From Pseudomonas maumuensis (GTDB lineage Bacteria > Pseudomonadota > Gammaproteobacteria > Pseudomonadales > Pseudomonadaceae), in the NCBI RefSeq assembly GCF_019139675.1, contig NZ_CP077077.1, positions 1,178,001-1,242,000 of the forward strand: a stretch of DNA of 64,000 nt, written 5' to 3'. Positions 5,222 through 40,944 of the stretch are shown here, piece after piece (position 1 is the stretch's first letter; the number at the start of each line of letters is the position of its first letter). Made by a program: the position numbers and the translations under genes. Under the pieces are notes generated by a model. It did not search any database and had not been told where the DNA came from. It was given only the letters and a program-made list of their open reading frames with translations.

Positions 5222-5734
5222 TCACTGGTGACGATCGGCCACGCCCATGCAGATGGCCATGATCAGCTTCAGCTCCTTCTGCACGGTGCTGGCCGAGACG
5301 CTCAACTGCTCGGCGATTTCCAGGTAGCTGGCGCCGTGCAGGCGGCTGAGGATGAAGATGCGTTGCTGGCGTTCGGTCAGTTGGCCGAGGCTGACGCTCA
5401 GGTGCTTGAGCAGTTGTTCGGCGTGAGCGGCATCCTCGCTGCTGCCCAGGGGCGCGGCGACATTGTGCAGGACCTGCTCTGGCACGTCGTCCACCAGGGT
5501 GCGGGCCTGTACCCGGCGGGCGCGCAGGTGGTCCAGGGCCAGGTTGCGTGCGGTCTGGAACACGAAGGGCTCGAGGTGTTCGATCGGTCGTTCGCCCAGG
5601 GCGCGGGTGACCCGCAGGTAGGTTTCCTGCAGCAGGTCCTCGGCGGTGCTGGGGTTGCCCACCATGCGCTGCAGCGTGCGCAGCAAAGTTAGACGCTGGG
5701 TGAGGAACACTGAGTTGAACCGGGACTGACTCAC
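5222..5734 (-). CDS. FecI/HasI-type ECF sigma factor
   Basis: This encodes 170 residues from a GTG at 5734. Region 2 (TAEDLLQETYLRVTRAL, PFVFQTARNLALDHLRARR) and region 4 (LTERQQRIFILSRLHGASYLEIAEQLSVSASTV) are both present, with the short linker typical of iron-starvation sigma factors. It should direct RNA polymerase to the adjacent TonB receptor promoter when the anti-sigma protein is signalled. The gene order sigma, anti-sigma, receptor on one strand is the standard FecIRA arrangement. A near-perfect Fur box lies about 25 bp upstream of the start, so transcription should rise in low iron. Confidence 0.9.
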   Translation of the reverse strand: MSQSRFNSVFLTQRLTLLRTLQRMVGNPSTAEDLLQETYLRVTRALGERPIEHLEPFVFQTARNLALDHLRARRVQARTLVDDVPEQVLHNVAAPLGSSEDAAHAEQLLKHLSVSLGQLTERQQRIFILSRLHGASYLEIAEQLSVSASTVQKELKLIMAICMGVADRHQ

Positions 5735-5759
5735 GGGGGAACCTGGGCGCTTTGGGGTG

Positions 5760-5778
5760 AATGATAATGCTTATCATC
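5760..5778 (-). promoter_or_regulatory. Fur box controlling the sigma/anti-sigma genes
   Basis: The 19-bp palindrome AATGATAATGCTTATCATC closely matches the Fur consensus in either direction, with the GATAAT half well kept. It ends 26 bp before the GTG of the ECF sigma gene, where it would cover the promoter. This is the strongest iron-regulatory site in the window. Confidence 0.8.
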
Positions 5779-5823
5779 ACTAGCCAAGGTCAAGCTTGAA
5801 AATGTCACGGATGAGTAAAGCGT

Positions 5824-5850
5824 GTGGGAGCAGGGTTGCCCCGCTCCCAC
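5824..5850. repeat. REP-type palindrome between GAPDH and sigma genes
   Basis: GTGGGAGC and GCTCCCAC form the arms of a 27-bp hairpin with a GGG-TTG-CCC top and one mismatched pair. It lies 33 bp past the gapA stop codon and about 90 bp before the sigma gene. It may end gapA transcription or protect the mRNA, but there is no T-run after it. Confidence 0.5.
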
Positions 5851-5883
5851 TCAGTCGGGTTCAGCCAAGGCGTGGTCCCTGCC

Positions 5884-6885
5884 TCAGCGTGCGTTGAACA
5901 GCGCCAGGCAGTTGTCCAGCATACGGTTGGAGAAGCCCCACTCGTTGTCGTACCAGGCAAGCACCTTGAGCATCCGGCCGTTGGCGCGGGTGTGGTTGGC
6001 GTCGAAGATCGACGACAGCGGGTTGTGGTTGAAGTCGCACGACACCAGCGGCAGGGCGTTGTAGCCCAGCACCCGGGAATGGCGGCTGGCTTCGAGGAAC
6101 AGCTGGTTGACCTCCTCGGCGCTGGTTTCGCGCTGCAGGTTGACGGTGAGGTCGACCAGCGACACGTTGATCACCGGCACCCGTACGGCCATGCCGGTGA
6201 GCTTGCCGGCCAGTTCCGGCAGTACCAGGCCGACGGCCTCGGCGGCGCCGGTCTTGCTCGGGATCATCGACTGGGTGGCCGAGCGGGCGCGGTACGGATC
6301 GCCGTGATAGACGTCGGTGAGCACCTGGTCGTTGGTGTAGGCGTGGATGGTGGTCATCAGGCCTTGCTCGATGCCGAACTCGCGGTGCAGCACCTGGGCA
6401 ATCGGCGCCAGGCAGTTGGTGGTGCACGAGGCGTTGGAGATGATCTGGTGCGAGGCGCGCAGCACATCGTGGTTGACGCCGTACACCACGGTGGCGTCGA
6501 CACCCTTGGCCGGGGCGCTGACGATCACCTTGCCGGCCCCGGCGCTCAGGTGCGCGGCGGCCTTGGCGCGTTCGGTGAACAGCCCGGTGCATTCGAACAC
6601 CACATCGATGGCCAAGGTTTTCCAGGGCAGCTCGGCAGGGTTGCGGATGGCGCTGACGGCGATGCGGTCGCCATTGACGGTGAGGCTTTCGTGGTCGGCC
6701 TCGACAGTGGCGTCGAAGGTGCCGTGGACGCTGTCGTATTTGAGCAGGTGGGCATTCATCGCGCTGTCGCCCAGGTCGTTGATGGCGACGACCTGCAGGT
6801 CCTGGCGGTAGCCCTGCGTGTACAGTGCGCGCAGGACGTTACGTCCGATGCGGCCGAATCCGTTGATGGCGATGCGTAGGGTCAT
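5884..6885 (-). CDS. gapA: Type I glyceraldehyde-3-phosphate dehydrogenase
   Basis: This encodes 333 residues. It converts glyceraldehyde-3-phosphate to 1,3-bisphosphoglycerate with NAD in the cytoplasm, taking the triose formed by the Entner-Doudoroff pathway into lower glycolysis. The nucleotide-binding [10 protein letters not shown] is at the N-terminus, the catalytic Cys154 sits in [12 protein letters not shown], and WYDNEWG is near the C-terminus. The start at 6885 has AGAGGT seven bases upstream; the frame is open 13 codons further but without a ribosome site. It is divergent from edd, and the gap between them holds two HexR-type boxes, so both directions are probably repressed by HexR. 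Confidence 0.95.
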
Positions 6886-6950
6886 GGTATTACCTCTGGC
6901 AGTCGGGTGAAGCCTGTGGCACAAAGGACAGCTTCACTGAAACGGTTTTG

Positions 6951-6965
6951 TTGTTGGAATTACAA
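6951..6965. promoter_or_regulatory. HexR-type operator, gapA side
   Basis: TTGT-TGGAATT-ACAA matches the TTGT-N7/8-ACAA consensus for HexR, which is released by 2-keto-3-deoxy-6-phosphogluconate. It lies 66-80 bp upstream of the gapA start in the gapA-edd gap. hexR itself is encoded 13 kb away in this window. Confidence 0.75.
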
Positions 6966-7012
6966 GATTATTCACCGAGAGATAGAAAACAAGCCTTTTT
7001 GCTGGCAGTATT

Positions 7013-7028
7013 TTGTTTAAACATACAA
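7013..7028. promoter_or_regulatory. HexR-type operator, edd side
   Basis: TTGT-TTAAACAT-ACAA is a second match to TTGT-N7/8-ACAA, with an 8-base spacer. It lies 124-139 bp upstream of the edd start. Two sites in one divergent region allow separate repression of gapA and of edd-glk-gltR-gtrS. Confidence 0.75.
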
Positions 7029-7151
7029 CGAGTGGTCGGGTCATCCCCTTGTCGAGCGGTCCAGGTGCCTTTTCCTAGAGCCTAGGTCGCAATCGTTTGG
7101 AGGGAAAATGCCCCAGTGAAGCCGCCCCACAGTTAGCCTGGAGTCCAGTAC

Positions 7152-8978
7152 ATGCATCCGCGCATCCTTGAGGTCACCGAACGGCTGATCGCCCGCAGCC
7201 GCCGTACCCGTGAACGCTACCTTGAGCTGATCCGTGGGGCGGCCAGCGACGGACCCATGCGCGGCCAGTTGCAGTGCGCCAACTTCGCCCATGGCGTGGC
7301 TGGCTGTGGCGGCGAGGACAAGCAGACCCTGCGCCTGATGAACGCCGCCAACGTGGCTATCGTCTCGGCCTACAACGACATGCTCTCGGCGCACCAGCCG
7401 TACCAGCACTTCCCCGAACAGATCAAACAGGCGCTGCGCGAGGTCGGTTCGGTCGGCCAGTTCGCCGGCGGTGTGCCGGCCATGTGCGACGGCGTCACCC
7501 AGGGCGAGCCGGGCATGGAGCTGGCCATCGCCAGCCGCGAGGTGATCGCCATGTCCACCGCCATCGCCCTGTCGCACAACATGTTCGATGGCGCGCTGAT
7601 GCTGGGCATCTGCGACAAGATCGTTCCCGGGCTGATGATGGGCGCCTTGCGTTTCGGCCACCTGCCGACGATCTTCGTGCCGGGCGGGCCGATGGTCTCG
7701 GGCATCTCCAACAAGGAAAAGGCCGATGTGCGCCAGCGCTACGCCGAGGGCAAGGCCACCCGCGAGCAGCTGCTCGAATCGGAAATGAAGAGCTACCACG
7801 GCCCCGGCACCTGCACTTTCTACGGCACCGCCAACACCAACCAGCTGGTGATGGAGGTCATGGGCCTGCACCTGCCGGGCGCCTCGTTCGTAAACCCCTA
7901 CACGCCGCTGCGCGATGCCCTCACCGCCGAGGCCGCGCGCCAGGTCACGCGCATGACCAAGGCCAGTGGCAGCTTCATGCCCATTGGCGAGATCGTCGAC
8001 GAAAAGGCGCTGGTCAACTCGATCGTCGCCCTGCACGCCACCGGCGGCTCGACCAACCACACCCTGCATATCCCGGCCATCGCCCAGGCCGCCGGCATCC
8101 AGCTGACCTGGCAGGACATGGCCGACCTGTCCGAGGTGGTGCCGACGCTGTCCCACGTCTATCCCAACGGCAAGGCCGACATCAACCACTTCCAGGCCTC
8201 CGGCGGCATGGCGTTCCTGATTCGCGAGCTGCTCGACGCGGGCCTGCTGCACGAGGACGTCAACACCGTGGCCGGGCATGGCCTGCGCCGCTACACCCAG
8301 GAGCCGTTCCTCGAGGATGGCCGCCTGGTCTGGCGCGAGGGGCCGCAGCACAGCCTCGACGAAAGCATCCTGCGCCCGGTGGCGCGGCCGTTCTCCGCCG
8401 AGGGCGGTTTGCGCGTGATGGAAGGCAACCTTGGCCGTGGTGTGATGAAGGTTTCTGCCGTGGCGCCCGAGCACCGGGTGGTCGAGGCGCCCGCCCGGGT
8501 GTTCCACGACCAGCAGTCGCTGGCCGATGCGTTCAAGGCCGGCGAGCTGGAGCGCGACTTCGTCGCCGTGGTGCGCTTCCAGGGGCCGCGCTGCAACGGC
8601 ATGCCCGAGCTGCACAAGCTGACGCCGTTCCTCGGCGTGCTGCAGGATCGCGGCTTCAAGGTGGCGCTGGTCACCGACGGGCGTATGTCAGGCGCCTCGG
8701 GCAAGATCCCGGCGGCCATCCACGTCTGCCCGGAGGCTTTTGATGGTGGCCCGCTGGCGCGGGTGCGCGATGGTGATATCGTGCGCGTCGATGGTGCCGC
8801 AGGCACGCTGCGGATCATGGTCTCGGCCGAGGAGCTGGCCGACCGTGAGCTGCCCGAGCCGCCGCAAGGCAACGACCTGGGCTGCGGGCGCGAGCTGTTC
8901 GGTTTCATGCGCGTGGCGTTCAGCTCGGCGGAAAAGGGCGCGAGTGCCTTCACCTCTGGCCTGGAGAATCTCAAGTGA
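7152..8978 (+). CDS. edd: Phosphogluconate dehydratase
   Basis: This encodes 608 residues, the normal Edd length. It dehydrates 6-phosphogluconate to 2-keto-3-deoxy-6-phosphogluconate, the first step specific to the Entner-Doudoroff pathway, using a [4Fe-4S] cluster. IlvD/Edd signatures are visible: [35 protein letters not shown] and [17 protein letters not shown], which include the expected cysteine ligands. The ATG at 7152 has GGAG about nine bases upstream. The stop overlaps the GTG start of glk by four bases, so the two are translationally coupled. Confidence 0.96.
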
Positions 8979-24261: not shown

Positions 24262-24283
24262 CGCCTGTGGGTTTTGGATTGTT

Positions 24284-24362
24284 TGTACCGGCCTCATCGC
24301 GGATGAATCCGCTCCTGCACGGTCCCTGTAGGAGCGGATTCATCCGCGATGAGGCCGGTACA
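24284..24362. repeat. Paired REP elements after eda
   Basis: A perfect inverted repeat of about 33 bp per arm (core CGCGGATGAATCCGCTCCT and its complement) surrounds a 13-base loop. It lies between the two convergent terminators of eda and leuA. The GGATGAATCC version of the REP head recurs in the compound element at 38943-39216. Confidence 0.9.
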
Positions 24363-24365
24363 GAC

Positions 24366-24394
24366 AAAAAAAAGCCCGCATCCAAGATGCGGGC
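24366..24394 (-). terminator. Intrinsic terminator of leuA
   Basis: On the minus strand GCCCGCATC-TTG-GATGCGGGC is followed by eight T residues, 21 bp past the leuA stop codon. It is a strong Rho-independent terminator facing the eda terminator across the REP pair. Confidence 0.9.
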
Positions 24395-28682: not shown

Positions 28683-29163
28683 GGGGGCATGATAAGGGGG
28701 AGTGGGGGGGGATGCCAGGGTTGGGATTGTTGCGAGCGGCAGGGGCGTGAGGCGGGCAGCGCATGGCGGGAGGTCGCATCACGGCATACAGGTGCATGGC
28801 GACAGGTTTGCAGCGCTCTTGAGATCGAGCGCCGCCCGCGCGGCGCATCGCTGGCAAGCCAGCTCCCACATTTGTTTCGGGCCAATCACTCCTGTGAGGG
28901 TGCCGCTGTCCGCCTTGGTGCATGTCTCAAGTCGGGCGAGGCGCCATTGGCGCCCACTCCAATACCGAGTCGAACCAACAAGGCGTACAGTGATGACCTT
29001 TCAGGAGTAACTGGCCCGAAACAAATGTGGGAGCTGGCTTGCCAGCGATGCGCCGCGCGGGCGGCGCTCGATCTCAAAGGCGCCATAACCCTCAAGGCCT
29101 GCACCTGTTCGCCTCACCGCATTTCCACGACAAACACCCCCACGGACGACCCCAGGACCCAGC
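28683..29163. other. 481-bp gap between xseA and the TauE gene
   Basis: No gene is supported. Most of the gap is the compound inverted-repeat element described at 28789-29107. The short open frames in it run through the GC-rich arms and are repeat artefacts. The first 100 bp is G-rich and should include the xseA promoter on the minus strand. Confidence 0.6.
28789..29107. repeat. Compound fold-back element, copy A
   Basis: A 66-bp perfect inverted repeat (28819-28884 with 29012-29077) carries three modules: GAGATCGAGCGCC, a GC palindrome-like CGCCCGCGCGGCGC, and a REP head TGGCAAGCCAGCTCCCACA. About 30 bp more of imperfect pairing extends outward (CAGGTGCA at each edge) and about 15 bp inward (ACTCCTG with CAGGAGT). 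The core near 28915-28990 resembles that of copy B at 38943-39216. The whole can fold into one long stem. Function is unknown. Confidence 0.85.
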
Positions 29164-38858: not shown

Positions 38859-38890
38859 GGCCTCATCGCTGGCAAGCCAGCTCCCACAGG
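38859..38890. repeat. Single REP after tadA
   Basis: GGCCTCATCGCTGGCAAGCC followed by AGCTCCCACAGG is one complete REP unit with a TGGCAAGCCA hairpin, nine bases past the tadA stop. It probably protects the cumA-tadA mRNA end. Confidence 0.75.
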
Positions 38891-38942
38891 ATGGCGCTTG
38901 GCTTTGGAAGCAGGGCTTTCAAGGTGTTCGGCGTTAGAGTGG

Positions 38943-39216
38943 CAGCGCCTGTAAGATCGAGCGCCGCCCGCGCGGCGCATCGCGGATGAATCCGCTCCTA
39001 CATTCGTTGCAACGTACCGAACCTGTCAGGCCATGGTTGCCAGCCTTGGCGCAGGGCGCAAGACAGGTGGGGCGCCGGCAATGCCCACCGAAAAATCGCG
39101 TCGAGCGCACAAGGCTCACAACCATGGCCTATCAGGCATGGCCACGTTGCAACAAATGTAGGAGCGGATTCATCCGCGATGCGCCGCGCGGGCGGCGCTC
39201 GATCTGATAGGCCCTG
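38943..39216. repeat. Compound fold-back element, copy B
   Basis: The arms 38954-39015 and 39144-39205 are 62 bp and complementary at 61 positions. They share with copy A the outer AGATCGAGCGCC and CGCCCGCGCGGCGCATCGC modules, but carry the alternative REP head GGATGAATCCGCTCCTACA. Pairing continues inside (CCTG-AGGCC with GGCCT-CAGG) and at the outer edges (CAGCGCCT with AGGCCCTG). The core 39045-39120 aligns with that of copy A without large gaps. Confidence 0.85.
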
Positions 39217-39310
39217 CAAGGGTTAAGACGAACACTTGGTAGCCCTGATGCGGTCAATACCCCAAGCGCCAAAAGACCTTGAAAGGGATGGGCTTTAGAA
39301 GGGCGATTGA

Positions 39311-39337
39311 GGGAGCTGGCTTGCCGGTGAAGTGGCC
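39311..39337. repeat. Degraded REP near the mltF stop
   Basis: GGGAGCTGGCTTGCCGGTGA keeps the REP head in reverse orientation, but the flanking part is altered (AAGTGGCC). It lies nine bases beyond the mltF stop on the minus strand. Confidence 0.45.
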
Positions 39338-39345
39338 TTGAAGAC

Positions 39346-40944
<1,599 letters not shown>

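Follow-up and report, generated by a model that had tools for sequence, protein, structure and literature searches.

A long REP-bearing palindrome of Pseudomonas maumuensis: probably a RAYT-linked, MITE-like element of the P. putida group

The palindrome between the tadA-like and mltF-like genes

The window, which is the whole stretch of 64,000 nucleotides analysed here, contains a long imperfect palindrome (element B, window 38922-39237) between a tadA-like and an mltF-like gene, both named from the reading of open reading frames and not from a search. The two inverted arms (38924-39015 and 39144-39235) are 92 nt long and 88% complementary. From the outside to the inside the element consists of a degenerate half-site (37 bp), a GC-rich collar hairpin (20 bp), a REP, a spacer stem and a core with stems of its own, followed by the mirror image. 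The features, in window coordinates, are:

38922-38958, plus strand: left degenerate half-site AGGTGTTCGGCGTTAGAGTGGCAGCGCCTGTAAGATC; consensus AGGTGTTCGCCGNNAGNNTTGCAGCGCCTATGAGATC from 74 flanks of 37 copies
38959-38978, plus strand: left GC-rich outer (collar) hairpin GAGCGCCGCCCGCGCGGCGC, which hardly varies among the 80 aligned elements, themselves collected by the collar motif
38979-39002, plus strand: left REP with head GGATGAATCC (ATCGC-head-GCTCCTACA), from sequence and inverted-repeat comparison
39003-39015, plus strand: left spacer stem of B type (TTGCAACGT), from sequence
39022-39048, plus strand: left inner stem of the core, inverted pair with 39110-39136 (85%)
39066-39089, plus strand: apical small hairpin GGTGGG..CCCACC in the core, read from the sequence
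39110-39136, plus strand: right inner stem of the core, inverted pair with 39022-39048
39144-39156, minus strand: right spacer stem of B type, from sequence
39157-39180, minus strand: right REP, inverted, of the same head class as the left one, from sequence and inverted-repeat comparison
39181-39200, minus strand: right GC-rich outer (collar) hairpin, from sequence and a 25-mer scan
39201-39237, minus strand: right degenerate half-site, from the flank consensus
38864-38888, plus strand: left REP (TGGCAAGCCA) of the resident REPIN that appears to surround B, from sequence; many relatives have REPINs without the element here
39308-39332, minus strand: right, decayed REP of the resident REPIN, an inverted repeat of 83%
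28783-29113, no strand assigned: copy A, the second family member of the window, with TGGCAAGCCA heads and A-type spacer, from its arms and a genome search

The left REP of B is the same REP as 'Pent1' of P. entomophila in Table 1 of PMC2817692. Since B is flanked by two further REPs (38864-38888 and 39308-39332), it appears to be nested in a REPIN. B itself carries two inverted REPs in one hairpin as a REPIN does, but 154 bp (39003-39156) separate them in place of a short spacer. The 242-nt interior folds into a hairpin of about -199 kcal/mol (RNA parameters), a value of the kind that any long palindrome would give. A plain REPIN of the GGATGAATCC head class, with 57-nt arms one base apart, lies elsewhere in the window (24266-24380).

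Copy A follows the same plan as B, with arms of 138 nt (28783-28920 and 28976-29113) that are 83% complementary. The outer 25-mer GAGCGCCGCCCGCGCGGCGCATCGC, common to both copies, was found at four sites in the window at up to three mismatches, all of them exact (0 expected from 100 shuffles). The heads differ, being GGATGAATCC in B and TGGCAAGCCA in A, and so do the spacer stems (GTTGCAACGT in B, TTTCGGGCCA in A). Direct reading of the sequence thus bears out the original prediction that B is a divergent copy in which REP head and inner stem are changed in both arms relative to A, and that both copies have stayed self-complementary. The outer modules are shared and the core is alignable, as had been claimed; the estimate by eye was 63% for the right-hand 60 bp, and ungapped identity, at 73% over 94 nt and 76% over 87 nt, is higher since it takes in the outer module. 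The element does lie at 38943-39216, the bounds proposed for it, but these cut off the degenerate half-sites, which reach to about 38922 and 39237.

Copies, flanks and occupied sites

A BLAST search with the 301-bp element detected 31 long copies in the genome of the window, besides shorter matches. Eleven are of B type, the ten others being 92-97% identical to B, and 20 are of A type with 66-71% identity to B. Together with six minimal copies that have the collar hairpin only, 37 own copies (20 A, 11 B) entered the flank analysis. Relatives of the P. putida group hold further copies. An exact scan of named genomes matched at least 120 stretches, and among the matches listed 76 of 80 were titled Pseudomonas. 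The exact minimal hairpin is present in 35 of 298 Pseudomonas genomes and the exact collar-plus-REP start in 32, seven genomes (G024, G072, G093, G124, G175, G235 and G307) having the former without the latter; these exact patterns miss variants. No description of this element was recognised in a literature search, and its outer 16- and 18-mers gave no text match.

Several copies stand in particular arrangements. Three A-type copies in the same orientation follow each other at a spacing of 1010 bp in L029 (own genome 120000-132000, positions 5409-7697); copies 1 and 2 share the right flank and copies 2 and 3 the left flank, which indicates a tandem duplication of a unit of about 1 kb. At L118, L079, L087, L130 and L150 the collar hairpin and half-site occur as a tandem duplicate about 61 bp apart before the REP, forming a compound end. 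The family was also found in L055, L092 and L122, records titled Pantoea sp. Ap-967; L122 aligns with the genome of the window at up to 89%, and these records are probably mislabelled Pseudomonas.

The 40-bp flanks are similar to each other irrespective of the type of the interior (B-B.622, A-B.620, A-A.649; background.268), with a within-type excess of.023 (p=.006). C at position -27 and A at position -3 of the half-site are invariant in 74 of 74 flanks. The half-site consensus, which had not been used for collecting copies, recurs in flanks from other species. Because B-B flanks are no more alike than A-B flanks although B interiors are 92-97% identical to B, and because positions are nevertheless invariant, the half-sites appear to be under constraint and not coupled to the interior. 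Transposition of the whole unit does not explain a half-site similarity of about 62% among B copies with such interiors. The decoupling would follow from exchange of a cassette or from gene conversion, but under either of them the invariant flank positions would still call for a binding function. Empty sites, in which a 22-bp hairpin stands between two half-sites, and the seven genomes in which exact matches revealed empty sites only, add to the decoupling in suggesting that interiors may be swapped. It is conceivable, if rather doubtful, that the half-sites together with the collar hairpin serve as a docking site for an exchangeable REP-core-REP cassette, swapped by a RAYT- or hairpin-guided process and not transposed whole. 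Another possible origin of the minimal 22-bp hairpins is deletion between short direct repeats that lie within the two collar hairpins.

Two candidate motifs were rejected. As a separate widespread repeat the half-site failed, a degenerate pattern with up to three mismatches matching 285 genome places compared with 139 for the reversed control; inspection of the first 100 of the 285 by eye yielded one further likely site outside the known copies (4903560). A distal end motif, CCCTTTCAAGG, was present in 15 of 85 own flanks (control 0) and in 9 of 250 others (control 3).

The tadA-mltF region was matched in 295 of the 298 genomes, and 27 of 29 fetched loci were readable across the intergenic region. 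By inspection all 27 relatives lack the element, and in many of them a plain REPIN occupies the place. The reverse holds between mltF and purL, with an element in L049 and none in the window (40871-40904, upstream of purL). Presence and absence at orthologous sites, as expected of a MITE, were thus found at both places; no target-site duplication was discerned at either, the flanks being too diverged in both comparisons. Other orthologous regions have copies of unlike interior in both genomes (B in L203 and truncated A in L163; B in L199 and a short hybrid in L139), or a minimal copy in the genome of the window (L231/L081, L232/L103).

These data bear on ectopic gene conversion as the only process at work. 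SbcCD cuts hairpins, and such cutting is also cited in the available part of PMC3733652. Long palindromes cut in an SbcCD-like manner would be repaired from other copies, and heads and interiors would spread in this way among old, immobile sites. Homogeneous interiors between flanks that are equally unlike whatever the interior, and the shared intergenic site with a B interior in the genome of the window and a truncated A in L163, are as such conversion would have them. The same applies to a one-arm TGGC/CGGC head swap in three own copies (the third copy of L029, L033 and L037), whose arms bear TGGCAAGCCA on one side and CGGCAAGCCG on the other; two paired positions differ and the local hairpin is intact. 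However, whole elements are present or absent at orthologous sites, and one element has a RAYT gene inside (see below). We therefore regard conversion alone as improbable, though as the strongest of the rival explanations.

REP heads and RAYT genes

RAYTs are Y1 HUH transposases that act on single-stranded DNA. A search for PF01797 in 18 element-bearing genomes gave 38 matches, of which 30 loci were fetched. A collar hairpin lies within about 1 kb of the RAYT gene at eight of the 30 (L267-L271, L282, L284, L294) and is lacking at 22; looser or more distant collar matches at L272, L273, L274, L278 and L280 are left out of the eight. At L271 a full element stands on either side of the RAYT gene. 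At L268 a half-site, a collar, a GGAT REP and a B spacer are followed by an intact RAYT gene of 154 aa (PF01797, E=4e-12) and then by a mirrored right arm of B type, the left arm being identical to B at 92 of 114 positions and the right arm at 80 of 92. Here the RAYT gene takes the place of the core, so that the same ends flank a RAYT gene, as expected if element B is a derivative of a RAYT transposon. L268, from one other genome, is the sole gene-inside case seen; at the seven further loci the collar is near the gene.

Heads are modular, and the head class is associated with the RAYT lineage. In a tree of 32 RAYTs, GGAT- and GAGC-linked genes form one clade, and the nearest tree neighbour has the same head class in 25 of 28 genes (3.3 in shuffles, p=.0005), the labels having been assigned by hand and four genes without nearby REPs left out. 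A GGAT head in at least one arm was found at 10 of 11 fetched element loci in G166, 8 of 8 in G298, 13 of 13 in G211 and 6 of 7 in G148 (37 of 39 together). Each of these four genomes has a RAYT beside GGAT REPs, and G166, G298 and G148 also have RAYTs with other heads. G125 is a counter-case, with GGAT in at least one arm at 7 of 7 fetched element loci, yet with other REPs beside its two RAYTs.

The genome of the window has two RAYT genes. One of them (L235, 2150-2910) is bracketed by nested TGGC and CGGC REP pairs and fits the A copies of this genome; the other (L234) is without such REPs. The A heads match the RAYT at 5526861. No cognate RAYT was found for the B copies, neither gene of this genome having GGAT REPs beside it, and the B copies would thus now be orphans. 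The loop sequence GGATGGCGCTTGGC near the RAYT of L235 recurs in the REPIN beside element B (window 38889-38902).

REP heads that behave as RAYT-class labels fit these observations better than selection on an RNA fold. Since the heads are REP classes associated with different RAYT transposases, A and B look like two element lineages that differ in a module, and not like the outcome of serial compensatory mutation. This is the likely main cause of the head difference, and the original prediction had missed it. We consider it probable that element B is a non-autonomous, MITE-like, RAYT-linked element of the P. putida group that is nested in a REPIN. A RAYT would recognise the REP pair and presumably mobilise the element, and both arms would have the same head because a head class suits one RAYT lineage. 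A and B would descend from two element lineages (TGGC/CGGC and GGAT). A second source of equal arms would be the copying of one arm onto the other, by template switching or by conversion at the hairpin. Given RAYT-class heads and arm copying, the covariation of head and stem would mainly be a trace of transposase specificity and DNA arm copying and not of an RNA fold.

Equal arms, covariation and comparison with known systems

The heads are alike in both arms of 69 of 91 copies; of the 22 others, four are unscored on one arm and one has an N, so that 17 have unlike heads. Copy L019 has GGATAAATCC in both arms where its ten B sisters have GGATGAATCC, and the exact GGATAAATCC REP occurs at three sites genome-wide, two of which are the arms of L019. 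A head about 15 nt longer is mirrored in both arms of L100 and L344, and a longer head is found in one arm only of L072, L112, L127, L142, L156, L347 and L348. Three loop variants (GA, AA and GAA), which are unpaired within the REP hairpin, agree between the arms in 8 of 8 copies in G166 (p=.004) and 8 of 8 in G298 (p=.006); in three further genomes agreement is 8/10, 4/5 and 4/5 (p=1 each). Over the five genomes 32 of 38 copies are concordant (stratified p=.0001; G298 alone.017), a count that takes in the discordant L098 and L111, possibly from the same assembly as G298, and leaves out one-armed or unscored loci as well as the GAGC-headed L301 and L337, whose arms are of different classes. 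Concordant copies within a genome may be related by common ancestry, so that the number of events is below that of copies and the loop test does not count independent events. Occasional copying of one arm onto the other is supported by L019, L100, L344 and the loop variants of two other genomes. In template-switch homogenisation of inverted repeats (available parts of PMC8794818 and PMC8604942) both arms can likewise change in one event and by several bases; those papers concern RNA genes and yeast genes, whereas the present case is a mobile element.

Equal arms might alternatively be due to selection for a folded RNA (or single-strand DNA): the element would be transcribed and its stem kept by compensatory mutation, as in a structured RNA or a bidirectional terminator. 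Indeed, 16 of 59 consensus pairs covary at E<.05 in the 80 aligned elements (R-scape-like test, tree-based null). Significant pairs, asked for as a check of the original prediction, are thus present, but they are confined to blocks, 12 at the REP head or next to it and the remaining four in the A/B spacer stem. Both arms change on one branch one to six times for each of the 12 head pairs and never for the four spacer pairs. The tree was built from the tested alignment itself, and the cut-off is also passed by 95 column pairs that lie outside the structure (37 expected), so that part of the signal is shared descent.

In the genome of the window own-arm agreement did not exceed that of shuffled arms in A copies (n=19; head.978 vs.980, spacer.962 vs.952, p=.12) or B copies (n=11; head 1.000 vs.990, p=.08; spacer.899 vs.898), where the p of.08, the lowest of these tests, is due to copy L019. 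In other species own-arm identity is above shuffled (A head.934 vs.729, B head.841 vs.620, p=.001 each). Inner arms gain nothing from their own partner over cross pairing in own A (p=.29), own B (p=.93) and other-species B-type copies (p=.99), and coevolution of the inner stem within own copies is rejected for the genome of the window. Inner arms of other-species A-type elements do pair best with their own partner (-38.7 vs -33.1, 29 of 33, p=.0002), which favours a fold or arm copying.

Arm mismatches comprise 31 G.T, 44 A.C and 42 transversions, with the strand set by the core, the orientation of which is ambiguous in 20 of 91 elements; G.T is not in excess over A.C (binomial p=.17) and wobble is thus not favoured. 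Apart from the own-partner pairing in other-species A-type elements, wobble-tolerant covariation within copies, as expected of a structured RNA, was not found. Spacer hybrids, one arm of A type and the opposite arm of B type, persist (L090 and L139, both by reading; L354, L355, L322 and L335). A crude ORF caller placed 14 of 38 copies between convergent genes, a point in favour of a fold, 20 between co-directional and four between divergent genes; relative to co-directional genes the orientation is mixed (six same and nine opposite, among 15 of known strand). No Rfam family reached the gathering score in the window, and at E<=1 copies L009 and L031 gave two weak matches only (E 0.9 and 0.75), both outside the element. 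Block-wise covariation, no per-copy arm match beyond chance in the genome of the window and no G.T excess together leave selection on an RNA fold unsupported, and we consider it unlikely. Of the two causes originally offered for the joint change of the arms, arm copying is thus supported, with loop variants from two other genomes among its evidence, and fold selection is not, given the own-arm and wobble tests.

Very unlikely is an ordinary REPIN or REP dimer with a long spacer, next to which outer hairpin and half-sites are chance neighbours: inverted REP pairs are the REPIN plan (available part of PMC3116915) and the constancy of the collar is partly a selection effect of collecting copies by it, but similarity over the 40 bp beyond the collar is about 62%, with a background of 27%, although the half-sites played no part in the collecting, a REP is missing from six of 37 copies that do have collar and half-sites, and the half-site consensus shared with other-species flanks already contradicts it.

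In this RAYT-linked element the two arms covary significantly, but transposase specificity and arm copying account for this better than a conserved fold does; as a worked example it is a warning for structured-RNA discovery. A multi-copy family of long hairpins that is tied to one RAYT clade and includes a gene-bearing copy also makes RAYT-driven movement of long REP elements directly testable.

Among known systems, the REPINs mobilised by RAYT in P. fluorescens SBW25, as described in the available part of PMC3116915, likewise have two inverted REPs in one large hairpin, are non-autonomous and have a head class linked to a RAYT. Unlike these, element B has 154 bp with a conserved core between its REPs and has collar hairpins and degenerate half-sites outside them; a spacer of 20-100 bp is given for most REP dimers in the available part of PMC3733652. 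According to the same part, bacterial MITEs are 70-300 bp long, have terminal inverted repeats and lack coding capacity. B resembles them in size, terminal inverted repeats, the lack of a gene and probable mobilisation in trans; it differs in that the partner linked to it is a Y1 tyrosine transposase and in that no target-site duplication was discerned. The TIRtrons of PMC3733652, again as far as its available part describes them, are RAYT genes of P. putida (ppf 607) and P. fluorescens (pfs 4255) whose TIRs consist of a degenerated GTAG-1 REP and an unrelated stem-loop, with 'hundreds' reported. The comparison is with this description; cores, half-sites and arm copying do not form part of it. 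Common to both are many copies of a REP that is joined to a further stem-loop, the two forming inverted repeats on either side of a RAYT gene, and the TIRs of TIRtrons and element B may belong to the same or to sister families.
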